Of a stretch of 26,505 nucleotides of DNA, positions 2,145-22,197 are shown in pieces. The translations under genes were made by a program, and so were the position numbers. The stretch is from NCBI GenBank assembly GCA_946618265.1, contig CAMOLA010000032.1:1-26505 (forward strand). The letters are read 5' to 3'. Below the pieces are notes generated by a model. It searched no databases. It saw only the letters and a program-made list of their open reading frames with translations, and was not told the origin of the DNA. Source of the DNA: an uncultured Eggerthellaceae bacterium. Lineage in GTDB: Bacteria; Actinomycetota; Coriobacteriia; Coriobacteriales; Eggerthellaceae. Every line of letters begins with the position of its first letter. The stretch's first letter is position 1.

Positions 2145-3983
2145 TTAGCTTTCGAGCGCTTCGGTGGTTTCGAGCCAGGTGAGCTCCAGCTCTTCGAGCT
2201 GGGATCGGAAATCGTCGATTTCGGCTTGGATTTCGCCAAGGGCTTGGAAATCAGTTGGGTCCGCGGCGTGCAGCCGCGCTTCGGCATCGGCGATTTTCTT
2301 CTGCATCGTATCCATCTTGCGCTCGGTCGAGTGCAGCGTCTTCTTGAGCGCCCGCAGCTCGGCGTTCGATAAGGCGCTCTGCTTGCCGCCAGCGTCACGA
2401 ACGCCTGCGCCGGTTTTCGGCACGACAGATGCGGTCGGGGAAGTTGCAGAGCCGCGATCGTCGTTCACGATTTGAAGGTACTCGTCGATACCGCCGGGGA
2501 GATGGCGGAGACGGCCGTCTATCAGGGCGTACTGGTTGTCGGTGACGCGCTCCATGAGATAGCGGTCGTGCGTGATGAGGATGAGCGTGCCGGGCCAACC
2601 GTCCAGCATGTCCTCGACGGCCGCCAGCATGTCGACGTCCAGGTCGTTGCCCGGCTCGTCCAGAATGAGCACGTTGGGCTCCTCGAGCAGGATGAGCATG
2701 AGCGCCAGCCGGCGTTTCTGACCACCCGAAAGGTCGCAGACCGGCTCGTTCATGTCAGCGTTGCTGAAGCCGAGCCGTTCAAGCAGCTGCTTGGGAGTTT
2801 GATCGCGCCCATCGAGCATGATGGCATGGCCAAAGCGCCCGACAACTTGCCGCACGCGGTCGTCGCCAGCCGCCACCAACTCGTCTAAATGCTGTGACAA
2901 GACGGCGAGTTTCACGGTCTTGCCCACTTTCACGTAGCCCTTCGTGGGACGGAGCTTGCGCTGAATGACGTTGATCAGAGTGGTTTTGCCCGCGCCGTTC
3001 GCGCCGACGATGCCGATGCGATCGCCTGGGCCGATGAGCCATTCGACATCGCGCAGAACCCAGCCATCGTCGGTCGCGCTTGCATCGGCCCCGTCGTAGC
3101 GCACCGATACGTTTTTCACGTCGACGACCTGTTTGCCCAGGCGGGTAATGGCCATGCGCTTGAGTTCGAGCTCGTTGCGCAGCGGCGGCACGTCCGCGAT
3201 GAGCTCCTGCGCCGCCTTGATGCGGAACTTCTGCTTGGTCGAGCGCGCCTGCGCCCCGCGCGAGAGCCAGGCGAGCTCGCGGCGGAGCTTGTTCTGACGG
3301 CGCTCTTCGGTGACACGCGCCACGCGATCGCGCTCGACGCGCTGCATGATGTAGGCCGAGAACCCGCCTTCGAACGGCTCGATGCGCTGGTCATGCACTT
3401 CCCACATGCTCGAGCACACCTCGTCGAGGAACCAGCGGTCATGCGTGACCACGAGCAGCGCTCCCTGGCCGTCGCGCCAACGGGTTTTCAGGTGGTTGGC
3501 AAGCCAGTTGATGGCGCGCACGTCCAGATGGTTTGTTGGCTCGTCGAGCATCACGACGTCGTATTCGCCCACGAGCAGCCGCGCGAGATCGACCCGCCTC
3601 CGCTGCCCACCGGAAAGCGTGCCAATGGTCGCGTCCCATGGGATGTCACCTGCGATACCCGCGATAATCGCGCGGATACGCGCATCGCCCGCCCACTCGT
3701 ATTCGGGACGGTCGCCTACGATCGAATCGCCCACCGTAGCGGCATCGGATAGCGCGTCGCGCTGGCCGAGCAGTCCGACCGTCACGCCATTCGTGCGAAT
3801 GACGCGTCCGCGATCAGGTTCTATTTCGCCCGCCAACATGCCGATGAGCGTTGATTTACCGTCGCCGTTGCGACCGACGATGCCGATGCGATCGCCGTCG
3901 TCAACGCCGAGGGATAATTCGTCAAATACCGTTTTGGACGGGAAATCGATGCCCGCCTTTTCGCAACCAAGTAAAAAAGCCAT
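2145..3983 (-). CDS. ABC-F family ATPase, Uup-like
   Basis: 612 aa with two ATPase domains and no membrane segments. Domain 1 has Walker A GRNGDGKS (37-44), signature LSGGQ (123-127) and Walker B/D-loop LDEPTNHLD (146-154). Domain 2 has GANGAGKT (327-334), LSGGQ (418-422) and LDEPGNDLD (441-449). A charged linker lies at about 212-270, and a C-terminal coiled coil at about 538-608 follows a Ser/Thr/Gly-rich hinge. The second D-loop (NDLD rather than NHLD) plus the C-terminal coiled coil resembles Uup rather than EttA. ABC-F proteins act on ribosomes or nucleic acids, not in transport. A resistance role cannot be excluded but nothing specific supports one. No Shine-Dalgarno is visible, and a TACAAT -10 lies so close to the ATG that the message may be nearly leaderless. 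Confidence 0.9.
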   Translation of the reverse strand: MAFLLGCEKAGIDFPSKTVFDELSLGVDDGDRIGIVGRNGDGKSTLIGMLAGEIEPDRGRVIRTNGVTVGLLGQRDALSDAATVGDSIVGDRPEYEWAGDARIRAIIAGIAGDIPWDATIGTLSGGQRRRVDLARLLVGEYDVVMLDEPTNHLDVRAINWLANHLKTRWRDGQGALLVVTHDRWFLDEVCSSMWEVHDQRIEPFEGGFSAYIMQRVERDRVARVTEERRQNKLRRELAWLSRGAQARSTKQKFRIKAAQELIADVPPLRNELELKRMAITRLGKQVVDVKNVSVRYDGADASATDDGWVLRDVEWLIGPGDRIGIVGANGAGKTTLINVIQRKLRPTKGYVKVGKTVKLAVLSQHLDELVAAGDDRVRQVVGRFGHAIMLDGRDQTPKQLLERLGFSNADMNEPVCDLSGGQKRRLALMLILLEEPNVLILDEPGNDLDVDMLAAVEDMLDGWPGTLILITHDRYLMERVTDNQYALIDGRLRHLPGGIDEYLQIVNDDRGSATSPTASVVPKTGAGVRDAGGKQSALSNAELRALKKTLHSTERKMDTMQKKIADAEARLHAADPTDFQALGEIQAEIDDFRSQLEELELTWLETTEALES

Positions 3984-5638: not shown

Positions 5639-6427
5639 CTACCCCAAGATGAGAATCGCCGCGCAAAGCGCCACCACGCACACAAGGGCAAGCACGTCGG
5701 CGGCACCGACATGCGACGCGTGCAACGACGTAGATTTCACCCCGCACGAGAAGCTGCGCGCAACGAACGCCTCGGCAAGCGCGTCGGCACGCCGATACGA
5801 GCTGCGCAGAAGCGGAGCGAACAAGCGCATATAAGCGGAAAGGCGCTCGCGAACGCCGCCTCCAAAGGTTGCGCAGCGTGCCTCTTGCGCATTTCTGAGC
5901 TGACGGAACTCGCCCACGAGCACGGGCACGAACCGAAATGCAATCGAAAGCGACAACATGAACGCTTCGGTGCGTGCGCCCATTGCTCGAAACGGCGCAA
6001 GCAACCAACGCAGCGCGCGCAAAAGCTCTTCGGTCGAGGTAATGCGCATGAACGCGACGCTTGCGAGCATGATGGAAAAGAGAACGACGATCATGCGCGC
6101 CGATTCCGCAAGCGCGCCCGATGTGATTGCCACGGAACCAACCTGCGCAAGCACATCGCCCTGCTGGAGATAGAGCACCTGCATGACCACGGTGATAACC
6201 AGTATGGGCCAAAACGGGCGCAGCACGCGCGCGTCCTCACGCGGGCGCATGCGGACCGCCACCGCAAGCAAAATCGCCGCACCGGCGCACATGCCAACTG
6301 CGAACGCGCCATGGGCGTGAAGCACCGCAACGACGAAAAACGCCAGACAGGCCAATTTCACGCGGGCATCGAGCGTCGCAAGCTTTGCGGGCAAGCCCCC
6401 ACTTCGACCGCCACGCGTGCCCGTCAT
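5639..6427 (-). CDS. EcfT/CbiQ-like energy-coupling factor transmembrane protein
   Basis: 262 aa from the chosen ATG. The start at 6427 overlaps the stop of the upstream Gx gene as ATGA, indicating translational coupling; a longer frame to 6493 would overlap that gene without a ribosome site. Hydrophobic N-terminal segments (KLACLAFFVVAVLHAHGAF and later) are followed by a cytoplasmic coupling region and a final helix (VLALVCVVALCAAILILG). The ALAEAFVARSF segment resembles the Ala-Arg coupling motif by which EcfT touches ECF ATPases. EcfT proteins link an S-component to EcfA ATPases to import vitamins or metals. No EcfA gene is in this window. Being last in a flavoprotein operon, it may help supply flavin or another cofactor, but this is inference. 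Confidence 0.8.
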   Translation of the reverse strand: MTGTRGGRSGGLPAKLATLDARVKLACLAFFVVAVLHAHGAFAVGMCAGAAILLAVAVRMRPREDARVLRPFWPILVITVVMQVLYLQQGDVLAQVGSVAITSGALAESARMIVVLFSIMLASVAFMRITSTEELLRALRWLLAPFRAMGARTEAFMLSLSIAFRFVPVLVGEFRQLRNAQEARCATFGGGVRERLSAYMRLFAPLLRSSYRRADALAEAFVARSFSCGVKSTSLHASHVGAADVLALVCVVALCAAILILG

Positions 6428-6972
6428 CGGCCTTCCTCCAAGCAGTCGAGCGCGTAACGCGTAGCAGCACCGCTGAGTGCCCCTGTTACACATGCGGCGA
6501 TGACCAGCAATGGCAAGCTTGCCAACACGGTCGGCGTGCCCAGGATGACGCTCGCCACCCCCAGCTGGCCCACGTTGTGCAGCACGGCACCCACGATGGC
6601 CACGAGCACGACCGACAAGCCGCGTACGCGCGACAACGCCGCCATAGACGCGAACGCGAGCAGCGTGCCCCCGAGCGAATACAGCATCATCACCGGATTG
6701 CCGAATAGAAAGCCCGCCGCCAGCACCTTGATGAGCGCCACGAGCGCTGCGCTCTTGACGTCGACGGTCACGAGCGCCACCAGAACAACGATATTGGCGA
6801 GCCCCAGCTTTATGCCGGGAACCGGCACGGGCAGCGGAATGAACGTCTCGACATAGCTAAACACGAGCGCGAGCGCGGCCAATACGCCGACGCGAGCCCA
6901 CATGCGCGCCTCTTCGACCGTCATGGGGCGGCTCGATCCAATTGCACGCCGATTGCTAGCGGGCGACGGCAT
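6424..6972 (-). CDS. Gx transporter family membrane protein (Hpre_diP_synt_I type)
   Basis: 182 aa from the ATG at 6972, chosen because AGGGGG lies six bases upstream; other in-frame starts lie at 7008, 6990 and 6924. About five hydrophobic helices follow, with the family-like segment VPGIKLGLANIVVLVAL near residue 50 and a Gly-rich LGGTLLAFASMAALSRV region. The family was first labelled heptaprenyl diphosphate synthase component I but behaves like a small membrane S-component or carrier. It overlaps the end of the NusG-II gene by 17 bases and is coupled to the EcfT-like gene, so the two probably form one membrane complex. Gx, NusG-II, ApbE and FMN-binding genes are known to co-occur in Gram-positive bacteria. 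The substrate is unknown. Confidence 0.82.
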   Translation of the reverse strand: MPSPASNRRAIGSSRPMTVEEARMWARVGVLAALALVFSYVETFIPLPVPVPGIKLGLANIVVLVALVTVDVKSAALVALIKVLAAGFLFGNPVMMLYSLGGTLLAFASMAALSRVRGLSVVLVAIVGAVLHNVGQLGVASVILGTPTVLASLPLLVIAACVTGALSGAATRYALDCLEEGR

Positions 6973-7384
6973 CAAAATCCCCCTGCCCATCGCCTCCTGC
7001 AGCCGCATCCACGTTCATCGAGGACGATCCATCCTCCCCATCGGCCAACACTTCGATCCACAGCTTATGGGGAAGGCAGATGATCTGCTTGCCAGGTGCG
7101 CTCACCTTGCCCTGGTGCACGCAGTCCTGGTTATCGCAATCGGCCTCGCGCACGTACACGGCCCCGTCCTCCACGACCACGACGTTCGTGCCGAAGCTCG
7201 TCGTAACCGCACGTTCCTGATCTTCGGAAAGCGAAAGCTCGAGCACACCACCGTCGCCATCGTGGACAACCGCCCGCATCGCCGCATTCCCATCGCTCAG
7301 TTGCATTGATGCATACAGCGCGATCGCCGCGACGAGCACCAGGCCCACGATGACGCCCACCACGATGTTCGCCTTGCTCTTCAT
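6956..7384 (-). CDS. NusG domain II-containing membrane-anchored protein
   Basis: 142 aa from the ATG at 7384, preceded by GGGGGA; a GTG twelve bases upstream is an alternative. One N-terminal membrane helix (NIVVGVIVGLVLVAAIALYA) is followed by an extracytoplasmic domain. The family signature is clear near the C-terminus: CDNQDCVHQGKVSAPGKQ, then IICLPHKLWIEVL. This small domain resembles the second domain of NusG but is not a transcription factor. It typically sits beside ApbE, Gx and FMN-binding genes, suggesting a part in extracytoplasmic redox or cofactor handling. The three cysteines might bind metal or form a disulfide. It is separated from apbE by a 37-base palindrome. Confidence 0.85.
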   Translation of the reverse strand: MKSKANIVVGVIVGLVLVAAIALYASMQLSDGNAAMRAVVHDGDGGVLELSLSEDQERAVTTSFGTNVVVVEDGAVYVREADCDNQDCVHQGKVSAPGKQIICLPHKLWIEVLADGEDGSSSMNVDAAAGGDGQGDFDAVAR

Positions 7385-7410
7385 ACTTTCCCCCACATCC
7401 TCTAGTCCGA

Positions 7411-7447
7411 AAATGTGACAAAGGGGTCAGACCCCTTTGTCACATTT
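7411..7447. repeat. Perfect 37-base palindrome, copy 1 of a dispersed family
   Basis: Two 18-base arms, AAATGTGACAAAGGGGTC and its exact complement, flank one central A. It lies between apbE and the NusG-II gene and provides two bases of the apbE stop codon. Related copies are at 12634-12666 and 12759-12791. The layout resembles REP-type elements spread by Y1 (RAYT) transposases, which is an inference; no such transposase is in the window. No T-run follows, so it is not a standard terminator. Confidence 0.85.
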
Positions 7448-8582
7448 AGACCAGTTCTGCATCGCAGCCTTCAGATTGGGTAATCGTCCCTTCCATGTCA
7501 ACGACCAGGCCCTCGATACCTTCCTTTGCGTTGATCCATGCAAGCGCCGCATCGTGCCCCATCATGAACAACGGCTTGGTAAAGCCGTCCCCGTCAATGG
7601 AGGCATCCGATATGATTGTCGCGCTGATCAGGTCCGTCTCAACCGGGTATCCCGTCTTGGGATCGAGGATGTGCCAGTACTTCTTGCCGCCCTTCGAAAA
7701 CTGCCGCTCGTACAAACCGCTCGTCACGGCCGATTCGTCCTGCGAGTACACGGCTGCGACCACCGCGCCTTCGACGTCGTTAGGGTCCTGGATGCCCACA
7801 TGCCATTCGGTACCGTCGGGTTTCACGCCAACGGTTTTCACGTTGCCGCCCAAGTTGACGAAACCGCTATCACAGCCCGCCTCGATCAGCTGCCTGCACA
7901 AGTCATCGGCAATGTAGCCCTTCGCAATACCGCCGAGATCGAGCATCGCCTGAGCATCGAGAAGCGTGATTGTCGTGCCGTTCACCTGAACGTTTTTGAA
8001 GTTGACGTGCTTCACCGCTTCGGCAACCGCTGTCTTGTCGGGCACGACGCCTTCCTTGAAATCCCAGAGCGACGATACCGCGCCGATCGTGATGTCGAAA
8101 AGCCCGCCAGACTCCTCGCAATAGGCCAGCGCCTTCTGCACGATGTCTGCCGTCTCGGGCGCAACCTCGACGGGCTTGCCCCCGGCCGCGTTGATGCGCC
8201 CAATGTCGCTCGTCTCGATAGTACGCGAGAAGATGGACTCGAAATACTGACACCGGTCGGCAAGTGCGTCGAGCGTCTCTTGCGCGCATGATGCCCTAAG
8301 CGTGACCACGGTGTCGAATGCGAAAAGCGTGGTGGATATCTCCTTGAACTGCTGAGCCGCCTTGGGAAGCTCGCCGACCGTCGTGCCGCTTGGCTTGCCA
8401 GGAGGCGCCGTGGACGACTCGGAAGAAGCCTCGCTCGACGAGGCGCCCGATCCTGAGCTCGACGACGCACATCCGCCGAGCAGAAGGCTCGCGCCTGCAA
8501 GGCACGCTGCCGTTGTCGCTTCCGCGAATTGCCTGCGCGTTAACATGCGCCCATCAACCTGGTACCCTCTGACAACTTGCAC
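7446..8582 (-). CDS. apbE: FAD:protein FMN transferase (ApbE), lipoprotein
   Basis: 378 aa. ApbE enzymes cut FAD and attach FMN to a threonine in the [ST]GAT motif of exported flavoproteins, using Mg2+. Visible motifs are FAFDTVVTL (87-95), SDIGRIN (125-131), DLGGIAKGYIADD (215-227), GFVNLGGNV (240-248), TSG (287-289), HILDPKTG (304-311) and the C-terminal DGDGFTKPLFMMG. The N-terminus has an RRQF twin-arginine-like start, a hydrophobic core and a lipobox LGGC at Cys38, then a Ser-rich spacer, so the protein is anchored outside the membrane. The GTG at 8582 is chosen because AAGGAG lies five bases upstream; an ATG at 8546 is possible. Its likely substrates are encoded just upstream in the same operon. 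Confidence 0.94.
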   Translation of the reverse strand: MQVVRGYQVDGRMLTRRQFAEATTAACLAGASLLLGGCASSSSGSGASSSEASSESSTAPPGKPSGTTVGELPKAAQQFKEISTTLFAFDTVVTLRASCAQETLDALADRCQYFESIFSRTIETSDIGRINAAGGKPVEVAPETADIVQKALAYCEESGGLFDITIGAVSSLWDFKEGVVPDKTAVAEAVKHVNFKNVQVNGTTITLLDAQAMLDLGGIAKGYIADDLCRQLIEAGCDSGFVNLGGNVKTVGVKPDGTEWHVGIQDPNDVEGAVVAAVYSQDESAVTSGLYERQFSKGGKKYWHILDPKTGYPVETDLISATIISDASIDGDGFTKPLFMMGHDAALAWINAKEGIEGLVVDMEGTITQSEGCDAELV

Positions 8583-8618
8583 AGCATCTCCTTGCCCGTT
8601 ACTTCGAGTAAGTTAATG

Positions 8619-8714
8619 CTAACATCTGGTATCTCTCAACGATGCCACAAACAGGCAAAGTCCAAAAGTAACGCCGAGCGCCCAGTTCCCATAGTAAGAG
8701 CGCGAGTTGATTTG
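8619..8714 (-). pseudogene. In-frame continuation of the NapH-like gene past a TAA
   Basis: Directly after the TAA at 8715-8717 the same frame stays open for 31 codons to a TAG at 8619-8621. The peptide contains SYYGNWALGVTFGLCLF, a convincing membrane helix that would return the chain to the cytoplasm. It has no start codon of its own. This looks like the severed C-terminus of the NapH-like protein. Confidence 0.5.
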
Positions 8715-9980
8715 TTAGAACGGCAACAGATTGAAGCCGAAGACTTCGACGAACGACGGGACGTAGCGAGCGGCGCCGACGATCCAACAGAGGGCGAGGA
8801 GGAGCACGGCCTTGGCTATAACGTAGCCGATTTCATTGCCCTTGAGCAAATGCCATCTCTCTTTCGTCTTGCGCAGAGGACGCGCAACGGGCTTGCGTTG
8901 GGCCGACTCGGATTTCTGTTCCCTTGGCTCAGCGTGGAGCGCAGGAGCCGCCTCGGCTTTGGCTGCAAGCGTCGTCTCGCCCCGCTCCATTGATGCAGCC
9001 GCTTTGACATCGTCGCGCTCGGCATTGCTTGCTTTTGCGACCATCGCGCCTTTTGCCTGCTCGGCGGCGAGGCGCTCCTGCTTGGCCAGCTTGCGCTCGA
9101 TTGCTACCATGTTGACGTTGCTCATGGGGCACACGTCTGCGCAGCGTCCGCACGAAACGCACTCGCCGTGGCGAAGCGTGTCGGCATCAGGCCAGATGTC
9201 GACCGGGCACGCTTCCTGGCAACGACCGCAGTTCTTGGCGCAATGGATTCTCGTGCGCACGAACTCGGAACAGCCGAGCACCGGCATGAGCGAGAACACG
9301 GCCCCGAGCGGGCAGAGGAACTGGCAAAAGGCCCGCTCGCGCACGACCATGAGCAGGACCACCAGGGCGAGGGCACCCAACGCAATCGCATCGATGCCGT
9401 CAACCGAGCCCGCCAGGATAGCCGCGAACGCCACCCACGGGCTGTAACTCGAGAAACTGGCCCACACCCCAGCGAAACAGGCAGCGCAAATCGCAGCCAA
9501 CACGACGTATTTCAGCAAAGAGAGGACCTTCACCTGACGATCAGAAAACTCGGGCCACGGGATGCCCGCCTTCTCGCGCACGAACTTGACCGCGTTGTAC
9601 AGCCAGTCCCCGATTGCGCCGAACGCACAAGCATATCCGCAGAAGAACCGCCCGAACAATATGGTGAACGCCAACACTGCCACGAGCTGGACCAGGAACG
9701 AAATCGGCTCGATGGCGTCGCCCAGACCGATTTGCGTGAACAGGTACTTCGCGCCGTTGAAGGCTCCCGAAAACAAGGCGGGCGCACCGATGAAGAACAC
9801 GAGCTGGATGTAGTAGCGCAGCCATCGGTGAGCGAGCTTCGCGTTCTCACGCTTCTTGGCAGCCGTTACGGGCTTTTTCTTGGGAGCGCCCTGCAGCGAG
9901 GTGGATGCTGATTGCGCTTCTGCCGCCTTCGCGTGCTTGGGCGCCTTCTCCTGCTCGAGCTCCTTCCCCTGCTCGGCCAC
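8715..9980 (-). CDS. NapH/NosR-like membrane polyferredoxin (4Fe-4S)
   Basis: 421 aa. At least five membrane helices are seen, near 53-72, 92-110, 155-173, 198-213 and 395-413. The paired motifs CGYACAFG (114-121) and CQFLCPLG (219-226) are the hallmark of the NapH/NosR/CcoG group. Two 4Fe-4S sites follow: Cys247, 251, 254, 258 and Cys274, 277, 280, 284. Residues about 293-390 are Ala/Lys/Glu-rich and low in complexity, an unusual insertion before the last helix. Such proteins pass electrons between quinol or cytoplasmic donors and extracytoplasmic acceptors. The GTG start shares its G with the TAG of the upstream FMN-binding gene (TAGTG), so they are coupled. The reading frame seems prematurely closed, because an extra helix is encoded in frame after the TAA. 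Confidence 0.87.
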   Translation of the reverse strand: MAEQGKELEQEKAPKHAKAAEAQSASTSLQGAPKKKPVTAAKKRENAKLAHRWLRYYIQLVFFIGAPALFSGAFNGAKYLFTQIGLGDAIEPISFLVQLVAVLAFTILFGRFFCGYACAFGAIGDWLYNAVKFVREKAGIPWPEFSDRQVKVLSLLKYVVLAAICAACFAGVWASFSSYSPWVAFAAILAGSVDGIDAIALGALALVVLLMVVRERAFCQFLCPLGAVFSLMPVLGCSEFVRTRIHCAKNCGRCQEACPVDIWPDADTLRHGECVSCGRCADVCPMSNVNMVAIERKLAKQERLAAEQAKGAMVAKASNAERDDVKAAASMERGETTLAAKAEAAPALHAEPREQKSESAQRKPVARPLRKTKERWHLLKGNEIGYVIAKAVLLLALCWIVGAARYVPSFVEVFGFNLLPF

Positions 9981-10447
9981 TACGCCTCACCCGCCATCGA
10001 TTTCTGCAGTGCCTCGGTCACGCTGTTGAGCATGTCGGCGGAAGTGTAGGTTGCGCCCGAGACGACGTCGATGTTGGTCGTCTGCTCCTTCACGATCTTA
10101 GCGGGAAGCCCCACGCACATGTCGAGCCACGCCTGGTCTTCCGAGCTCGCGTCAACAATTTCAACAGCATCGATATAGCCGTTTTCGATGACCACGCGCA
10201 TCTTGACCTGCCCGCCATAACCCTTGGCCGCACCTTCGAACGTACCGTCAGTCGTATACGGACCGCGGTTGGCCGCGCGCTCGGCCTCGGCGATCTGCTG
10301 CCCGACCATTTCATCATGCGCATTGGCCTTCGCTGCCCACATGCTGAACGTGACGAGGGCTGCAACCACGATGATGAGGTTGACCGCCTTGGCCGCGAAG
10401 TACTTGAACCTGTCATAGGAGTTCTGCATAGGCGTGGTGTTTACCAT
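9980..10447 (-). CDS. Membrane-anchored FMN-binding domain protein
   Basis: 155 aa. One N-terminal helix (AVNLIIVVAALVTFSMWAA) anchors an extracytoplasmic FMN_bind domain at about 60-150. The flavinylation motif is DVVSGATYTS near residue 135, in which ApbE would esterify FMN to the Thr of SGAT. It is similar to the FMN-bearing subunits of Rnf/Nqr and NosR-type systems and should hand electrons from the NapH-like protein to the multi-flavin protein. The next gene starts on the last base of its stop codon. The Shine-Dalgarno for the ATG at 10447 is poor, and an ATG at 10429 is an alternative. Confidence 0.87.
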   Translation of the reverse strand: MVNTTPMQNSYDRFKYFAAKAVNLIIVVAALVTFSMWAAKANAHDEMVGQQIAEAERAANRGPYTTDGTFEGAAKGYGGQVKMRVVIENGYIDAVEIVDASSEDQAWLDMCVGLPAKIVKEQTTNIDVVSGATYTSADMLNSVTEALQKSMAGEA

Positions 10448-10488
10448 AGATTACATTAGATGGACGATACGAGATCCCGAAAGCATGT

Positions 10489-12456
10489 TCAGCAGCCCGC
10501 AACGGCGTTTTCGGGCGTGACGCCCATTCCCGCTGCAGCGTTGTCGGCCGCCATGCTGTAGGCGTTGATGATGGCGCGCGACGACCGCGTCGCCCCCGAG
10601 ACAGTCTGGATGCCGCTCACCGCCGCCTGAGCGTCGAGTTTCGCCTGAATCTGCTTCAGGATGCTCTTCATGCGATAGCCCGTGCCGCCGAACTTGCCGT
10701 CAATCGCCCAGTCCAAATACATCGCATTCTCCGAAGCGCTGTACAGCACGCTCGGGTCAACGACGCCGTCGGCGTCCCCGTAAGCGTCCACGACCTCGGT
10801 CACCACGCCATCGGTTGCCTTTACCTTCACGAACACGTAGTAGGACGACCAGTCAGAAGCCGCCGACTCGCACAGCGCATACCCGTAATGGATGGTTGAA
10901 GCGGATGCTTGCTGGTCGTCGCCCGGATCGGACGAGCTTGGATCATCGCCTCCACCACCAGTCGAGGCGTCGTCGTCACCCTGTCCGCTACCCGTCGAAC
11001 CGCCCATGCCGTCATCTGCGCCGTCGGACACCTCGACCGTTCCGCCACCGGCAGCGGCAGACTTCTCGAGCGCGGCGAAGAAGGCGTCGAATATCGACTT
11101 GGACGAGAACGTGGCGCCCGACACCGTGTCCACGCTGCCGGGAATCTTGCCGGCAGCCGCCGCATTGCGGAGCTGCGTTCCCACGCCCCATTCGGCGTTG
11201 TCGAAGTAGTTCTTGTTCTCGGCCTCGTCGTAGTTGAGGGCCGCATCTCCCGGCTCGCCGGTCGACGAGCCGAATATGGCATCGACCGAAACCAGCTTGT
11301 CGCCGCTCACGGTGACGGTGACGCCGATGTAATAAGGCTTCCACGTATCATCGGGATCGGGACCGCACGTGGCATAACCCGTCCATGCGCCATCAGCCAA
11401 CGTGCCCACGTTCGTGTCGGGCTGAACGGTCTCGGGCGTGGTCGAAGTCTTCGTAGTGGCCGACTTCTTTTTCTTCACCTTGGAGCCGGCAGCCTTCGCC
11501 GACTTGGCAAGCGCATCCTGGTAGGCCTCCCAAATCGCCTCGGAGGAATAGGTCGCACCGCTCACGGTATCGACGGACGAGGCGGATCCACTTGCCTTGA
11601 TCTGCTTGTTGACCTGCGTCTTGACACCGGTTGATCCTCCCTTGCCGGAGATGGCCCAGCTCAGGTACTTCTGGTTCTCGGCCGGGTCCCACGACAGCGC
11701 CGCGCTGCCGGAATCGCCCGTCGAGGAGCCCGTGACCTTGGTGATGCCCTTGACCTTGCCGCCCTTCACCTTCACGGTGACGGCGACGTAATAAGGCTTC
11801 CAGTTGGCCGTGTTGCCCTGCCCACATGCGGCATAGCCCGTCCAACTGCCGTCGGCCAGAGACGCGGGAGTCGAGCTTGCCTTCACTTTCTTGCTCGCGC
11901 CGGAGTCGCCCGCGTCTGCACCGGCGGCCACCGACCCCGATTCGCCCGCGGCCTTCTTCGTCGCGTCGACGAAGGCGTTGTAGATGGCCACCGACGAGTA
12001 GGTGGCGCCGCTCACGGTGTCGACGCCGCTCACGGTGCCTGACGCAGCTATCTGCGAGTCCATCTGCGCGCGCACGCCCGAGCCGCCGCGGCCCGACACG
12101 GCCAAATCGAGGTATTCCTGGTTCTCGCTCGGATCCCAGTTGAGCGCGTCCGAGCCATCGTTGCCCGTCGAGGAGCCGGCGATGTTGGTGATGCCCGTCA
12201 CCTTGTTGTCCTTGACCATGATGGTGACGGCCACATAGTAGGGCTTCCACCCGTCCGGGTTGCCCTCGCCGCACACGGCGTACCCGGTCCAAGTGCCATC
12301 CTGCATCTGGCCGGTCGCGCCGGCGCCGCCGACGTTCTGGGCGTTTTCCGCCTCTTTTTCGTCTGCGTCGACTTGCTTCAGCTCGTCGGCCAGAGCCGAC
12401 TCGGCCTTGTACAGGGAGGGGTCGAACACGAGCGGCGTGTAGCCCGCCACGGTCAT
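10489..12456 (-). CDS. Four-domain FMN-binding protein (multi-flavinylated), N-terminus frameshifted
   Basis: The open frame gives 655 aa with four FMN_bind domains at about 53-160, 203-310, 355-460 and 521-635. Each carries an SGAT motif (Thr152, Thr302, Thr449, Thr623). The first three read DTVSGAT; the fourth reads QTVSGAT and lacks the usual Asp. Each domain begins with GYA.C, so there is one conserved Cys per domain, and the protein ends in Cys. Acidic Gly/Ser/Asp-rich and Lys/Thr-rich linkers separate the domains. The ATG at 12456 is unlikely to be the true start: the same frame upstream encodes a hydrophobic stretch without a start codon, while a good start with GGGAGG lies at 12533 one frame away. 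A one-base deletion near 12485 explains this. If intact, this would be a membrane-anchored electron wire outside the cell. Confidence 0.85.
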   Translation of the reverse strand: MTVAGYTPLVFDPSLYKAESALADELKQVDADEKEAENAQNVGGAGATGQMQDGTWTGYAVCGEGNPDGWKPYYVAVTIMVKDNKVTGITNIAGSSTGNDGSDALNWDPSENQEYLDLAVSGRGGSGVRAQMDSQIAASGTVSGVDTVSGATYSSVAIYNAFVDATKKAAGESGSVAAGADAGDSGASKKVKASSTPASLADGSWTGYAACGQGNTANWKPYYVAVTVKVKGGKVKGITKVTGSSTGDSGSAALSWDPAENQKYLSWAISGKGGSTGVKTQVNKQIKASGSASSVDTVSGATYSSEAIWEAYQDALAKSAKAAGSKVKKKKSATTKTSTTPETVQPDTNVGTLADGAWTGYATCGPDPDDTWKPYYIGVTVTVSGDKLVSVDAIFGSSTGEPGDAALNYDEAENKNYFDNAEWGVGTQLRNAAAAGKIPGSVDTVSGATFSSKSIFDAFFAALEKSAAAGGGTVEVSDGADDGMGGSTGSGQGDDDASTGGGGDDPSSSDPGDDQQASASTIHYGYALCESAASDWSSYYVFVKVKATDGVVTEVVDAYGDADGVVDPSVLYSASENAMYLDWAIDGKFGGTGYRMKSILKQIQAKLDAQAAVSGIQTVSGATRSSRAIINAYSMAADNAAAGMGVTPENAVAGC

Positions 12457-12533
12457 CCCGATGGCCGCCGCAACCGCCAGCGAGGCAGCATCAGCCAGAT
12501 CGGCGTGGATTTCAACCTATCGAGCAATTCCAT
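12454..12533 (-). pseudogene. Orphaned N-terminal codons of the four-domain flavoprotein
   Basis: GGGAGG, four bases, then ATG at 12533 starts MELLDRLKSTPIWLML, a typical positively charged start of a membrane anchor. That frame then becomes Arg-rich and stops at 12453-12455, inside the next frame's ATG. The 655-aa frame upstream of its ATG reads ASLAVAAAIG, which completes the helix if one G is restored (CTGCC to CTGGCC) near 12485. No homopolymer suggests programmed slippage. Confidence 0.65.
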
Positions 12534-12564
12534 ATTTCCTCCCGAAATCCCCCTTCATATGCTG

Positions 12565-12611
12565 GAGCGCTTTCCCGAACGCACCGCGGCGATGCACTCG
12601 GGAAGGCGCTC
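12565..12611. repeat. 14-bp hairpin in the leader of the four-domain flavoprotein gene
   Basis: Arms GAGCGCTTTCCCGA (12565-12578) and TCGGGAAGGCGCTC (12598-12611) pair with one G-T wobble around a 19-base loop. It lies about 30 bases upstream of the ribosome site for the ATG at 12533, so it could influence mRNA stability or translation. Confidence 0.5.
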
Positions 12612-12633
12612 TCCTGCCGCCGGCCGCGGCTGG

Positions 12634-12666
12634 ATGTGACAAAGGGGTCAAACCCCTTTGTCACAT
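12634..12666. repeat. 33-base palindrome, copy 2 of the dispersed family
   Basis: Arms ATGTGACAAAGGGGT and its complement flank CAA. The core differs from copy 1 by one base that breaks the innermost pair. It lies in the gap between the two large FMN-binding genes. Confidence 0.85.
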
Positions 12667-12671
12667 TCTCT

Positions 12672-12696
12672 GGGGCGGCATCCCGGATGCCGCCCC
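12672..12696. terminator. GC-rich 10-bp hairpin between two FMN-binding genes
   Basis: GGGGCGGCAT and ATGCCGCCCC pair around CCCGG. No clear T-run follows on either strand, so it may be a processing or attenuating stem rather than a full terminator. It sits between palindrome copies 2 and 3. Confidence 0.4.
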
Positions 12697-12758
12697 GTTT
12701 GATATCTCCCACTTCGCCTGCACGTTGCAGCGGCAGTCTTGGCGGCGGCGTTGGGCGG

Positions 12759-12791
12759 ATGTGACAGAGGGGTCTGACCCCTCTGTCACAT
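12759..12791. repeat. Perfect 33-base palindrome, copy 3 of the dispersed family
   Basis: Arms ATGTGACAGAGGGGTC and its exact complement flank one T. Compared with copy 1, AAA became AGA in one arm and TTT became TCT in the other, so pairing is kept despite the change. It lies 11 bases past the stop of the 812-aa gene. Confidence 0.85.
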
Positions 12792-12801
12792 CGCGCGCAA
12801 T

Positions 12802-15240
12802 CTATTTCACCTTGGCCTTCTTGCCGGCGACCTTCTTGGTGAAGATCTTCTTGTACTTCTTCACGACCTTCTTGTTGGCCTTCTTGCTGCCGACCTGGAC
12901 CTTGACGGTCGTGACCTTGGAGCCCTTGAGGGACCCCTTCACGGACTTCTTCTTGAGCTTCTTGGTCTTGACGACGATGGTCTTGATGTTTGTCCCCTTG
13001 AAGGCGCCCTTGGCGATCTTCTTGACCTTGGGCCCGAGCGTTACGGTGGTCGCGCCGAGGTCGGAGGCCCTCTTCATGTCGGCGGCCGTGACGCTCGCCT
13101 TGTTCACGTTGCTCGCGGCGGCCAGCGCTGCGGCCTTGTCCGCCGCTGCCTTCTCGGCGGCCTTCTTCGCCTCGTCGGCAGCCTTCTTGTCGGCGATGGA
13201 CTTCTCGGCGCTCGTCAGCTTGTCAAGCGCAGCTGCATCGACCTTGGCCTTCACGGCCGGATCGAGCGCGTCATAGGCGGCGCGTGCGGCGGCGACGGCG
13301 GCCTCGTCGCTCGCGTCGAGGGCCTCGAGGCCCTTCGCGACGATGCCGGCCTCGGCGGCCTCGAGCTTGTCGATGCCCGTGGTGAAGGGGCGCACGTCGA
13401 GGGGAAGCGCGTCGTAGGCCTCACGTGCTTCCTGGACGCTAGCGGCGTTCTCCGCGCTTGCAGCGTCGAGCAGCGCGCTTACGTCGGCGACCTTGCTCAT
13501 GTTCTCGAGGTCGTAGGCAACGGCGATGTCGCCATGGCCCAGCTCGTACTTGAACACGACATGCGTGATGTCGGTCGACTTGGTCGTGAGCGTGCCCGTG
13601 CAGACGTTGCCCGTCACCCCGTCGTTGGTGTACTTAAACGAGATCATGTCGTCGTCGGCGAAGAGCTCTTCGTCGTTCTTGACCGTGTTGTACGTGACCA
13701 GATAGCCGGCGCTCCTATCGCTAGCCGACGCACCCGGATTGTAGTAGCACTTGAGCAGCTGGTAGGGGCTGTCCTCTGCCAGCTCGCCCGTCTCCACATT
13801 GACATCCTGCTTGGCCAGCGCGAGCATGCCCTGGGTGCCGACCATCTTGCCCGCCAGGTTGTACAGGCATATGTCGCGCAGACCCTGGCGGCCGCCGCCG
13901 TAGCGCTTCAGGCGAAGGTTCAGCGTGTACGTGCCGTCGCTGTTCTTCACGACGCTCGTCAGGTCTTGGGAGTTCCTAATCTTCGTCGAGTCGTTGTCGT
14001 TCACGTTGATGCACGGCAGCGAGGCGGCATCCGCCGCGTTCTTGCCGTCGATCGTCACCTTCACGTTTTCGGAGACGCCCTTGATATAGCCGTCTTCGCG
14101 TGCCTGGCTCAAGGCTGCGGCGAAAGGCTCGGCTGTCTTGGTCGCACCGCTGACCGTGTCGACATCGGCGATCTCGCCATCGAGGTCGGTCGAGACGCTC
14201 TCGTCGGACATCGCCTTGCCCCACGAGGCGAGCATGCGCAGCGAGACCGTCGCCATCAGGCCCGTCCAGCCTTCCCGGTTGGTGTCGACTCCCGTCGTGG
14301 GGTTGTCGACCAAAGCCTTGGCGGGAATCGTGTCGATGTACTCGCCGGCGATTCCCGCATTCTCGCCTATCGAGAAATAGGTGTTGAACTGCATATTGTC
14401 GCCGATGCCGATCGTGTAGGTGCATTTCACCAGGTTGTAGTAGTTCGGGTTGTTCTCGATCGTGCCGGTCTCGGTCGTGTTCTCGGCAACGACCACGCCT
14501 TCGATCGTCGAGGGAACGGATATCTTGCCCTCGCCGTAATCGTTCTGGTCGGCGTTCGCGATCTTGTACGCCGTAGACGTGTAGTGCGGCGCAGTCACCT
14601 TGTTTTTGCCCGATTGAACCTGGCGCGAATTGTCGAAGTTCTGGTCGATGCCCAAAACATCAGCCGTTCCCTGCGCGTTTACGGACATGAGCGCAACCGA
14701 TGCGAGCTTGTAGCCATAGTCGGCAAGAACCTTGCCGGAAAGGGCGGGCGTCCAGGAGCCGTCGCCGTTTTGCGTCGCCGAGAAGCTCACGCCCTTCGGA
14801 AGCCAGCCCTCGACCGTGGAGGTATCATAACCCCATTTGCCGGCGAAGGTGTCGTTGCCGCTCGTGATGTCGACGGCGGTCAGCACGCCGTTGTCGTCGG
14901 TCGTTATCTCGGTGTAGAGCGAATAGGCCTTGAAGTGGGAGCCATCGCTGTGCACATAGCCCTTATATTTGTGCACGTTGCCCTCACTCGACACGAGCTC
15001 GACGCCGCCCGCCAGCGGGTCGCCGCTCTCGCCGATAATGGCAAGGTCGGACTCTACGGGATCATAGTGCTGCAGGCTTGCCGTCTTGCCTTGCGCAAGT
15101 GCAGGGCTTCCGACCTGCTGCAGGTCGGCTGGGGCTGCCAGCGCGACTGCTGGCGTCAACGCAGCCGCCAGCGTGCCGGCGAGCAGAAACCTGCCCGCAC
15201 GCGAGCTTAGGCCCTTGAGCCTTTCGAATCTAATGGTCAT
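12802..15240 (-). CDS. Secreted FMN-binding surface protein with FIVAR-like repeats and LRR-like tail
   Basis: 812 aa. A signal peptide covers about 1-36 (FLLAGTLAAALTPAVALAA). An FMN_bind-like region with long insertions ends in DTVSGATKT (Thr367), an ApbE target motif. Residues about 391-580 form a beta-rich region I cannot assign. Two helical repeats at about 590-690 share the pattern AR.AYDAL...LEAAE (AREAYDALPLDVRPF and ARAAYDALDPAVKAK), similar to FIVAR modules of Gram-positive surface proteins. An Ala/Lys helix follows, then one LRR_5-like unit (VTLGPKVKKIAKGAFKGT) and a very basic tail. The start at 15240 has GAGGAGG upstream. It is the promoter-proximal gene of the redox operon and faces the LuxR gene. 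The tail could hold the protein to the anionic wall, with the flavin domain acting as a reductase or electron relay. Confidence 0.83.
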   Translation of the reverse strand: MTIRFERLKGLSSRAGRFLLAGTLAAALTPAVALAAPADLQQVGSPALAQGKTASLQHYDPVESDLAIIGESGDPLAGGVELVSSEGNVHKYKGYVHSDGSHFKAYSLYTEITTDDNGVLTAVDITSGNDTFAGKWGYDTSTVEGWLPKGVSFSATQNGDGSWTPALSGKVLADYGYKLASVALMSVNAQGTADVLGIDQNFDNSRQVQSGKNKVTAPHYTSTAYKIANADQNDYGEGKISVPSTIEGVVVAENTTETGTIENNPNYYNLVKCTYTIGIGDNMQFNTYFSIGENAGIAGEYIDTIPAKALVDNPTTGVDTNREGWTGLMATVSLRMLASWGKAMSDESVSTDLDGEIADVDTVSGATKTAEPFAAALSQAREDGYIKGVSENVKVTIDGKNAADAASLPCINVNDNDSTKIRNSQDLTSVVKNSDGTYTLNLRLKRYGGGRQGLRDICLYNLAGKMVGTQGMLALAKQDVNVETGELAEDSPYQLLKCYYNPGASASDRSAGYLVTYNTVKNDEELFADDDMISFKYTNDGVTGNVCTGTLTTKSTDITHVVFKYELGHGDIAVAYDLENMSKVADVSALLDAASAENAASVQEAREAYDALPLDVRPFTTGIDKLEAAEAGIVAKGLEALDASDEAAVAAARAAYDALDPAVKAKVDAAALDKLTSAEKSIADKKAADEAKKAAEKAAADKAAALAAASNVNKASVTAADMKRASDLGATTVTLGPKVKKIAKGAFKGTNIKTIVVKTKKLKKKSVKGSLKGSKVTTVKVQVGSKKANKKVVKKYKKIFTKKVAGKKAKVK

Positions 15241-15609
15241 TCATTTCCTCCTCATCCCTGACTCATTGCTCCGACTCGAACTGGCCCGCAACCGCCTACT
15301 TCGCGCGTCAATGGATCCTGCAGGCCAAAACGACTATCCGCAACCTTCTCCATGCGCACCGTCGATTCGGGCATAGTTCGAGCCAAGCTGAAGATAGTGA
15401 CGAAGATGTTAGTCTATAGGAACTTTTAGCAGTTCATCAAAGTAAACTTTGCCTAATTCATGACCTGGGATTACCCAACTTTACCCAATAATTAGGTACG
15501 CCATTTAATGCTTTCTACAAGCTTTTCCGTCAACAGAATAGCTACAATGGCACTTAAATGTTATATCCGACTAACCGTTCACCTTTGCAAACATCAGAAG
15601 AGGAAGTCA
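15241..15609. promoter_or_regulatory. Divergent control region between the redox operon and its LuxR gene
   Basis: This AT-rich stretch serves both the minus-strand operon and the plus-strand regulator. It contains a 14-bp palindrome CAAAGTAAACTTTG (15438-15451), two TTACCCAA direct repeats exactly 10 bases apart (15471-15478, 15481-15488), and inverted CCTAATT (15452-15458) and AATTAGG (15490-15496) that bracket them. These are good candidates for regulator binding sites. Clear -35/-10 pairs were not identified. Confidence 0.55.
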
Positions 15610-16710
15610 GTGCCCCAGGAGACATTTGACGCAAGAACAGCGATAACCGCCGCGCCCGCAGTCGTGGGCATGGCGGCGCTTTGGATGTCGCTTTACAAAC
15701 GGCTTCTCTACCCGGTCATGTTCTCGTTCCAACGCACGGGCTTCGACGGCGGCATGATCGCGCAGGGCGTCTACGCGCTCGTATTCGTCACCGCGCTGTT
15801 CGCGCTCTACGCGTTCCGCGGAAAAGCAGCTCGCGCGCTTGTCGTGCACAAATGGATTGCAGTAGTTTTCGGGGTCGGAGGTGTCATCGGGCTCTTTCTG
15901 CTGACGCCGAGCAGCCTGTCCGGAACCGATACGGCCGAAGCTTTCAACGTGGGGAGCGTACTCGTGGCACTCTACATGCCCGTCCATCTTGCATTTTGGA
16001 CTTTCTACATGCGCCTTTCGAATACGAGCCATGTCGACCGGACGCTCATCGGGTCTTTCGCGCTGTTCTTGGCCATAAACCTCGCGCTCATCCCGCTCGG
16101 CGGCCAATCATCGACGATTTCGATCGCATGTCCGATTGTGTCCACGATCATGATCGCCATCTGCAAACCGATTGCGCGCCCCTCATCCGAAACCGCCCTA
16201 GAAAAGCCGGCCGCGAGCGTCTCCGACGCTACACCCTCGTCTGCGCCAGCACGTTCACCCTCAAGCACTCCCGATGTTCCATCCTCGCCAGCGCCGACGT
16301 CTTCGCCCATGCCGTCAAGCGCGCTTTCGACCGCGACCGTTCATGAGCCCGAATCGGCCCCTCCGCTGGTTGCCGCACTGGAGCCATCGTCAAGCGCGAC
16401 GACAAAACCTAGCCCCTCGACCGTGCCGCAAGCACCACCGCAGAACGAAGCTCCGAAGACGCGAAACCTGCGCTTGACAATTCGCCAATTCGGCAAAGAT
16501 TTCGGGCTCTCCGATCGCGAAGCCGAATTATCGGCCTATGCATACCACAACTACAGCGCCCGTAAAATCGCAAGTGAGCTGTTCATTGCCGAAAGCACCG
16601 TATACACGCATTTGAAACGCATTTACAAGAAAACAGGCGTCCATTCCAAGGCCGAACTCATCGACCTCATCGATGGATGGAAAGAGGCGAACGGCTTTGG
16701 CGAACGCTAA
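15610..16710 (+). CDS. Membrane-bound LuxR-family transcriptional regulator
   Basis: 366 aa from the GTG at 15610, chosen because GAGGAA lies upstream; the frame extends to an ATG at 15508, which lacks a ribosome site. About six membrane helices fill residues 10-180 (for example ALVFVTALFALYAF and WIAVVFGVGGVIGLFLL). A Ser/Pro/Ala/Thr-rich linker spans roughly 185-290. The C-terminal LuxR/GerE helix-turn-helix lies at about 300-356, with LSDREAELSAYAYHNYSARK, then IASELFIAESTVYTHLKRIY. No phosphoreceiver domain is present, so it is probably a one-component sensor of a membrane or extracellular signal. Proteins of this design are numerous in Eggerthellaceae, often next to redox genes. Divergent orientation suggests it controls the flavoprotein operon. 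Confidence 0.87.
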   Translation: MPQETFDARTAITAAPAVVGMAALWMSLYKRLLYPVMFSFQRTGFDGGMIAQGVYALVFVTALFALYAFRGKAARALVVHKWIAVVFGVGGVIGLFLLTPSSLSGTDTAEAFNVGSVLVALYMPVHLAFWTFYMRLSNTSHVDRTLIGSFALFLAINLALIPLGGQSSTISIACPIVSTIMIAICKPIARPSSETALEKPAASVSDATPSSAPARSPSSTPDVPSSPAPTSSPMPSSALSTATVHEPESAPPLVAALEPSSSATTKPSPSTVPQAPPQNEAPKTRNLRLTIRQFGKDFGLSDREAELSAYAYHNYSARKIASELFIAESTVYTHLKRIYKKTGVHSKAELIDLIDGWKEANGFGER

Positions 16711-21735: not shown

Positions 21736-21761
21736 GGGACTCCGTATACAAAAGTGCCCCG

Positions 21762-21848
21762 AAAAGACTAGGACGCTCGTCAGCGGTCCCTTATGGCTGC
21801 TTCCTCCCGGACCTGACCAGGTTCGGAACTTGGCGCCGTCCTAGTCCT
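21762..21848 (-). ncRNA. ffs: Signal recognition particle RNA, small bacterial type
   Basis: The minus strand contains the conserved SRP domain IV core GGTCAGGTCC, then GGGAGGAAGCAGCC, which binds Ffh. The ends pair as GACTAGGACG with CGTCCTAGTC, giving a 4.5S-type hairpin of about 87 bases followed by a short T-run (TCTTTTC). The boundaries are estimated from the closing stem. A minus-strand TATACT at 21879-21884 lies about 30 bases upstream of the mature end, so a short leader may be trimmed. Confidence 0.93.
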
Positions 21849-22197
21849 TTCGAGACACTCGAACAACTGCATAGGGCAGTATAAACGAGTTCACGCCCCT
21901 ATGCGGGAACGCAAACCAAAACCACACAGGAACGCATTGCCGCAGAGCTTCAGCCTGCTTCCCGGATAGCCCGTTTGGCAACGGGATGCATAACCGCTTG
22001 CGCGGCTACACGTTTCTAACACCTTTAACGCGGGCAACCGTGGGCGAGCACCACGCCGTTCAACTGGACGGACGGATCACGGGCTGGCGCAAACAGCCAC
22101 AACGCGGAACATTCGGCATACGCTCCACGGCTGACCAGCGGGCCCTTGTGTACAATAAACGCAAGAAGTCAGCTCGTCATCGCATGCGGAGTAAACA
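21849..22197. other. Intergenic region between SRP RNA and SRAP gene
   Basis: About 350 bases between divergent units. They contain a possible SRP RNA -10 (TATACT on minus, 21879-21884), a possible plus-strand -10 TACAAT at 22151-22156, and GGAG seven bases before the SRAP start. I saw no gene, tRNA or SOS-type box. Confidence 0.5.

Follow-up and report, generated by a model that had tools for sequence, protein, structure and literature searches.

The minus strand of a 26,505-nt contig from an uncultured Eggerthellaceae bacterium (CAMOLA010000032.1, hereafter the window, meaning the whole stretch analysed) carries eight consecutive open reading frames (ORFs) between 15240 and 5639. Their sequences support their assignment, as a putative operon, to the NapH-like flavinylated electron-transfer systems, a class predicted by Meheust et al. 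in 2021 (PMC8238504); systems of this sort have been predicted for many gut bacteria. A PF12801 protein is encoded here in one cluster with flavin mononucleotide (FMN)-binding and ApbE genes, the combination by which NapH-like flavinylated systems are operationally defined. We consider it likely that the eight genes encode one flavin-based module exporting electrons from the cell interior to the surface. We report its gene content, its conserved co-occurrence in relatives, the conservation of its motifs and the scarcity of quinone-pathway markers in most carrier genomes examined.

A preliminary description of this DNA had proposed eight consecutive minus-strand genes, several of them overlapping, with six SGAT motifs and with ApbE, NapH-like, NusG-II, Gx and EcfT-like products. 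The ORF listing agrees, and a Pfam scan of 20 window ORFs, judged by Pfam's own cut-offs, places each of these families over its threshold; seven of the eight cluster proteins pass, the exception being the 812-aa surface protein. Base 9980 is common to the small FMN gene and the NapH-like gene, the NusG_II and Gx genes overlap, and Gx and EcfT overlap through an ATGA. The SGAT motifs are distributed as one, four and one over g1, g2 and g3. The same description counted three exported FMN-binding proteins, which is right for two of them but not for g2, whose anchor is frame-broken as sequenced. It also began the EcfT-like gene at 6493; given the ATGA overlap with Gx, the start as read from the sequence is most likely 6427. 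The features of the cluster are:

12802..15240, minus: g1, 812-aa exported surface protein with signal-peptide-like start, SGAT at residue 364 and lysine-rich C-terminal end
10489..12456, minus: g2, four-domain FMN-binding (multi-flavin) protein, 655 aa as ORF
12483..12534, minus: membrane-anchor start of g2, in a frame other than that of the g2 body, with the frame break near 12483
9980..10447, minus: g3, small membrane-anchored FMN-binding protein (FMN_bind), 155 aa, one SGAT
8715..9980, minus: g4, NapH-like membrane protein, 421 aa, Fer4_5 and Fer4
7446..8582, minus: g5, ApbE flavin transferase with lipobox-like cysteine
6956..7396, minus: g6, NusG_II (EetA-like) protein with one N-terminal helix, hydrophobic stretch 11-29
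6424..7008, minus: g7, Gx/EetB-like substrate-binding subunit of an energy-coupling factor (ECF) transporter, PF07456
5639..6427, minus: g8, EcfT-like (FmnA-like) ECF transmembrane subunit, start overlapping the g7 stop by ATGA

Conserved co-occurrence in relatives, on which the preliminary description had made its proposal depend, was found in Coriobacteriia and in Bacillota. A scan of genome contigs with a NapH-like alignment returned 393 places encoding a relative, of which the best 80 were kept: 11 Coriobacteriia loci (L001 to L011) and 69 Bacillota loci. Two of the Coriobacteriia loci, L004 and L005, both Adlercreutzia, hold all eight families together on one strand, in an order unlike that of the window (ApbE, NusG_II, Gx, EcfT, surface protein, small FMN, NapH-like, multi-FMN); L005 is the cultured relative Adlercreutzia equolifaciens DFI.6.87, with the eight families in one run. 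Ten of the 11 Coriobacteriia loci contain apbE, and nine have matches to each of NusG_II, Gx and EcfT; the two loci without these three (L001 and L002) are short contigs of 7.8 and 4.2 kb. Among the Bacillota, the core block of multi-FMN, small FMN and NapH-like genes recurs in this order on one strand in 52 of 69 loci (34 of the 41 that extend 5 kb or more on both flanks). The apbE gene lies no more than 8 kb from the Bacillota NapH-like gene in 53 of 69 loci, Gx in 32, NusG_II in 21 and EcfT in a single one, so EcfT belongs to the cassette mainly in Coriobacteriia.

A tree of 89 NapH-like rows separates, by a branch with 100/100 support, the 69 Bacillota rows from the window, the 11 Coriobacteriia loci and eight metagenomic proteins. 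The gene is rare in Coriobacteriia: when up to six candidates per genome were scored, 7 of the 296 genomes sampled had it at E <= 1e-40. Chance is no serious explanation for the eight-gene cluster.

Proteins of the proposed electron path and flavin supply

The NapH-like protein matches Fer4_5 with 65.6 bits (cut-off 22) and also Fer4. A crude hydropathy scan marks five hydrophobic stretches, the several transmembrane helices of a PF12801 protein, and the predicted model is helical, with its fifth helix at 384-404, near the C-terminus. Twelve cysteines are invariant in 70 aligned relatives: the CX3C pairs 114/118 and 219/223 of the membrane module and eight in a two-cluster ferredoxin domain. 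A hydrophobic stretch after the ferredoxin domain is present, by the same kind of crude measure, in 117 of the 118 long-tailed relatives among 120 examined. Three of the 120 and L008 carry a fused FMN domain after the fifth helix, which should put that domain outside. The same FMN profile found an N-terminal FMN domain in none of the 120, whereas most NapH-like proteins of Meheust et al. have one (1926 of 2465 clusters; PMC8238504). An identity with NapH proper was rejected, the protein scoring 67.6 bits against the 213.05 of the NapH/MauN subfamily model and 72.8 against the 234 of the NapH model (both NCBIfam).

Next to it, the small FMN protein reaches 45.6 bits for FMN_bind (cut-off 22) and has a hydrophobic stretch at residues 21-39. 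The 655-aa g2 product shows four FMN_bind stretches (104.9 bits against the same cut-off), each of the four SGAT motifs of the gene counted among the six above; more than one FMN-binding domain is the mark of a multi-flavinylated protein.

The surface protein has a hydrophobic stretch at residues 18-36, and its structure, predicted with modest confidence, contains an immunoglobulin-like region and helices at about 584-710. FIVAR-like and leucine-rich-repeat (LRR)-like parts had been read into it; no such Pfam family matched at E <= 0.1 and the labels remain impressions. PF13306 is a precomputed annotation of one relative, P0002. A database of 5.8 billion proteins, searched through its 7996 best-sharing candidates, yielded six homologues, and six of the 11 Coriobacteriia loci contain a family member. 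When the first seven surface proteins were made into a profile, 76 of 296 Coriobacteriia genomes gave a match (at most three candidates scored per genome), nearly all of the matches listed sitting in C-terminal repeat-rich columns. Restricted to the core, the profile matched six of the 296 at E <= 1e-5 (at most four candidates scored per genome): along its length in one, Adlercreutzia G004, and by short matches at the ends only in the other five. Three Coriobacteriia loci (L006, L007 and L011) encode in their cluster a protein of 1279-1350 aa with one FMN-domain match, unmatched by the surface-protein profile. The g1 and g2 proteins themselves are absent from the protein-database returns (best identity 48% and 62%, respectively); the NapH-like protein of the window is present in the same database on three contigs (P0007).

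For flavin attachment the cluster encodes ApbE (271.5 bits). The start of this protein holds what we take to be a twin-arginine-like motif and a lipobox-like cysteine, so ApbE is probably a lipoprotein outside the membrane. The NusG_II protein (85.8 bits) has cysteines 87, 92 and 107 invariant in 36 of 36 relatives, the last within CLP[HN], a possible metal or thiol site. Solved relatives of this domain are 4esn, 4obi, 2kpp and 3ld7; in the available text of the Listeria study, eetA deletion is without reported phenotype (PMC9973259).

The two remaining genes probably supply the flavin. The Gx protein matches PF07456 (Hpre_diP_synt_I/Gx) with 127.1 bits and the EcfT-like protein matches CbiQ/EcfT with 82.7 bits, a score obtained for the longer ORF. 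They stand side by side as ECF substrate-binding and transmembrane subunits, as in the EetB-FmnA exporter. Listeria EetB, of the same family as Gx, binds FAD (flavin adenine dinucleotide), and EetB, the EcfT-like FmnA and ECF ATPases are needed there for flavinylation when no FAD is added (Rivera-Lugo et al. 2023, PMC9973259). Gx and EcfT are fused into a single protein in L003, L006, L007 and L008, and ATPase motifs lie within the Gx protein in L009, L010 and L011; the proximity of eetB to NapH-like clusters, and fusions joining EetB to ECF-T and to ECF-A, had already been reported (PMC9973259). On the strength of this work and of the fusions, we abandoned the reading that the two proteins belong to the electron path and preferred FAD export. 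Our analysis suggests that they probably form an EetB/FmnA-type FAD exporter which feeds ApbE and carries no electrons. In L003 (13431-14918) and L008 (10068-11450) the Gx-EcfT fusion and the other cluster genes are on opposite strands.

Electron donor, proposed route and alternatives

The donor was surveyed in the genomes of 30 of the 80 loci (10 Coriobacteriia and 20 Bacillota); no completeness figures accompany these genomes, many of them metagenome assemblies, and with the strict cut-offs a single absence counts for little. ApbE is found in all 30 and the EetB family in 29. MenD is over its cut-off in seven, namely six from Eggerthellaceae, Eggerthella or Adlercreutzia and L001 (Coriobacteriaceae). 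A full-length MenD match in L017 falls below the cut-off (167.8 against 244.2 bits), and we read the weaker MenD-like matches in other carrier genomes as being of the thiamine-enzyme kind. MenA matched in four genomes, over the cut-off in none, and PF02621 of the futalosine pathway exceeds its cut-off only in Faecalibacterium prausnitzii (26.1 against 26 bits, the match covering part of the profile). Since 22 of the 30 carriers (21 if L017 is set aside) have no menaquinone-pathway marker over cut-off, menaquinol is unlikely as the general donor of the NapH-like family; it may be the donor in Eggerthellaceae. Our guess is reduced ferredoxin, because the two-cluster domain is cytosolic and the hosts are anaerobic fermenters.

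The electron-export module could then work as follows. By analogy with Listeria, the EetB-like and EcfT-like proteins would move FAD outward together with ECF ATPases from genes outside the cluster; ApbE, as expected of its family, would use it to place FMN onto threonines of the small FMN, four-flavin and surface proteins. A cytosolic donor, family-wide more likely ferredoxin than menaquinol, would reduce the two [4Fe-4S] clusters of the NapH-like protein, and electrons would travel through the membrane module of this protein to the small FMN protein anchored in the membrane. They would next pass to the four-flavin protein, the surface protein and an external acceptor.

Several observations weigh against this reading. 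Seven of the 10 Coriobacteriia carriers have MenD over cut-off, so menaquinol is a possible donor in the lineage of the window. RnfC exceeds its cut-off in 18 of the 20 Bacillota genomes, and offers there an alternative user of ApbE and EetB; in none of the 10 Coriobacteriia carriers does it reach that score. No ECF ATPase was found among the window ORFs scanned, save the ABC-F type protein encoded at 2145-3983. Of the 11 Coriobacteriia loci, only one has the multi-FMN, small FMN and NapH-like genes in this order, a count that depends on the ORF picking used. The g2 ORF, from 12456, is without export signal or membrane anchor. Finally, the FMN_bind match of the surface protein stays below cut-off (15.6 against 22 bits), and its profile compared with FMN_bind domains gives a weak, suggestive match (probability 39.6%, E 3.1e-4, 102 columns). 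With the Pfam match below cut-off, its putative flavin site is proposed because the motif is conserved: A366 and T367 are invariant in 13 of 13 aligned relatives, among which SGAT is replaced by SAAT in two members and by TGAT in one.

The first alternative, which we find somewhat unlikely, is a quinol-fed respiratory relay, in which menaquinol would feed the NapH-like module and the flavins would pass electrons to a reductase from another part of the genome. The wealth of extracytosolic reductases in Eggerthellaceae speaks for the relay, as does MenD in the Coriobacteriia carriers. It is also favoured by the four-helix module with CX3CP motifs common to PceC, NosR and NapH, for which quinol oxidation has been proposed (PMC5928378). 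Against it stand the 22 carriers lacking a menaquinone marker over cut-off, the absence of a match to any reductase family among the window ORFs scanned, and the fact that the cluster has its own surface protein.

The break in g2 raises another possibility, that the cluster is decaying in this strain, the main wire having lost its export and the other genes being on their way out. A three-frame reading finds an N-terminal anchor encoded from the ATG at 12534 in another frame, with a stop soon after; the relative P0128 aligns to the window by residues 1-17 in one frame and 18-684 in another, which meet at about 12483. The split frames, together with the hydrophobic N-terminal anchor of 42 of the 46 closest relatives among the matches listed (the other four look N-terminally shortened), are what decay would leave. 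Yet the rest of g2 and the seven other genes are open, and a one-base sequence or assembly error would give the same picture, so that we hold decay to be unlikely; it would, moreover, be compatible with electron export in relatives. Either export of the main flavin wire is lost or the sequence is in error at the break, and unless the latter holds the electron chain may be interrupted in this strain.

Still less probable, in our judgement, is that the flavin proteins serve maintenance, such as reducing iron for uptake or the thiols of wall proteins, rather than electron disposal in energy metabolism. Flavinylation genes do lie beside iron transporters according to Meheust et al. (PMC8238504). 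On the other side, no iron transporter matched among the window ORFs scanned, and the multi-flavin relay with its surface protein would suit long-distance transfer.

Within the electron-export reading, the 22 carriers without a quinone marker over cut-off and the 10 Coriobacteriia carriers, none with RnfC over cut-off, make a direct ferredoxin-to-flavin route testable. A bolder version, which we hold to be less likely than not, is a distinct, quinone-independent export system shared by gut Clostridia and Coriobacteriia, in which electrons would run from ferredoxin through a NapH-like protein with an outward fifth helix to a flavin wire and a lineage-specific surface flavoprotein, the same cassette standing behind the extracellular electron transfer of Faecalibacterium prausnitzii and its kin. 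F. prausnitzii is reported to transfer electrons outward with riboflavin (PMC9986023, citing Khan et al. 2012), and in its locus (L023) FMN-binding genes adjoin the NapH-like gene; a link between the cassette and this transfer is our hypothesis.

Surroundings and regulation

Beyond the cluster, two further features of the window were annotated:

15508..16710, plus: LuxR-type regulator with hydrophobic helices (GerE, 44.9 bits), divergent from the cluster
21757-21852, minus: bacterial small signal recognition particle (SRP) RNA, 57.6 bits, upstream of dnaX

The divergent LuxR-type protein may regulate the cluster; relatives occur close to the NapH-like gene in two of the 80 loci, L001 (E 3e-65) and L002 (partial, E 7e-6). 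Near-perfect palindromes (GTGACARAGGGGTC/GACCCCTYTGTCAC) occur at 7411-7447, 12634-12666 and 12758-12792, all inside the cluster, one after apbE and two between g1 and g2, and none at its end. Their exact patterns are absent from the 105 loci and 12 related genomes searched. Scans for consensus promoters and terminators gave sites no more numerous than in shuffles, and a search with Rfam found no regulatory RNA near the cluster, the SRP RNA being the sole match over the gathering score. Window DnaX aligns at 62% identity, over residues 65-892, with the genome of L008 (Eggerthellaceae), and its N-terminal part at 77-78% with three other genomes, two Eggerthellaceae and one Adlercreutzia, as would be expected of a member of that family.

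Comparison with known systems

The cluster shares with the Listeria locus ApbE, an EetA-like NusG_II protein, an EetB-like Gx protein, an FmnA-like EcfT protein and exported proteins, here predicted to be flavinylated (PMC9973259). Where that locus has NADH dehydrogenase and quinone genes, the window has a NapH-like iron-sulfur protein: the ORFs scanned gave no match to an NADH dehydrogenase (Ndh2) or to quinone genes, and the score on the PplA model NF041941 is too low (48.9 against 325 bits). The absence of the dehydrogenase and the PplA score led us to reject the locus as the Listeria extracellular electron transfer locus, and the content and order had been rightly described as unlike it.

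The membrane module with two CX3C motifs likens the NapH-like protein to NapH, NosR and PceC/RdhC, and its two-cluster ferredoxin domain to NapH and NosR; its first motif is CX3CA, unlike the CX3CP of NapH, NosR and PceC (PMC5928378). Among the ORFs scanned there was no match to a partner gene of these proteins for nitrate, nitrous oxide or dehalogenation. The purified proteins SaFMN3 and CbFMN4 contain three and four successive FMN domains, respectively, in which ApbE attaches the flavin covalently (PMC10339131). Those were studied in soluble recombinant form, whereas g2 would be one step of a membrane-to-surface cluster, with flavinylation predicted from its genes. The RnfG-type flavoprotein model TIGR01947 is not reached (31.1 and 16.1 against 102 bits).

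In the literature searched, from which subscription journals were mostly absent, no work joins at least three of NusG domain II, Gx transporter, FMN-binding, 4Fe-4S and FMN transferase, none among the matches listed pairs Coriobacteria with flavinylation, and Meheust et al. (2021) alone joins at least three of the subjects NapH-like protein, ferredoxin, extracellular electron transfer and quinone independence. That paper states that the reaction is unknown for most NapH-like systems, as is the role for most multi-flavin clusters (PMC8238504).

It is these clusters of Meheust et al. that the window resembles most directly: a PF12801 protein lies beside FMN-binding proteins and ApbE, one protein is multi-flavin and, as in their Figure 6, there is a large surface protein with putative wall-binding parts (PMC8238504). 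FMN domains on separate proteins, as in the window, are a minority arrangement there (539 of 2465 clusters). Unlike the clusters as described in the available text, the window has a fifth helix after the ferredoxin domain of its NapH-like protein, and its surface protein matches no family over cut-off. The NapH-like multi-flavin class (2021) and the FAD exporter (2023) were thus already known; to these we add the broken anchor, the permuted eight-gene set of Adlercreutzia, the fifth helix, a small surface-protein family and the quinone-pathway mismatch.

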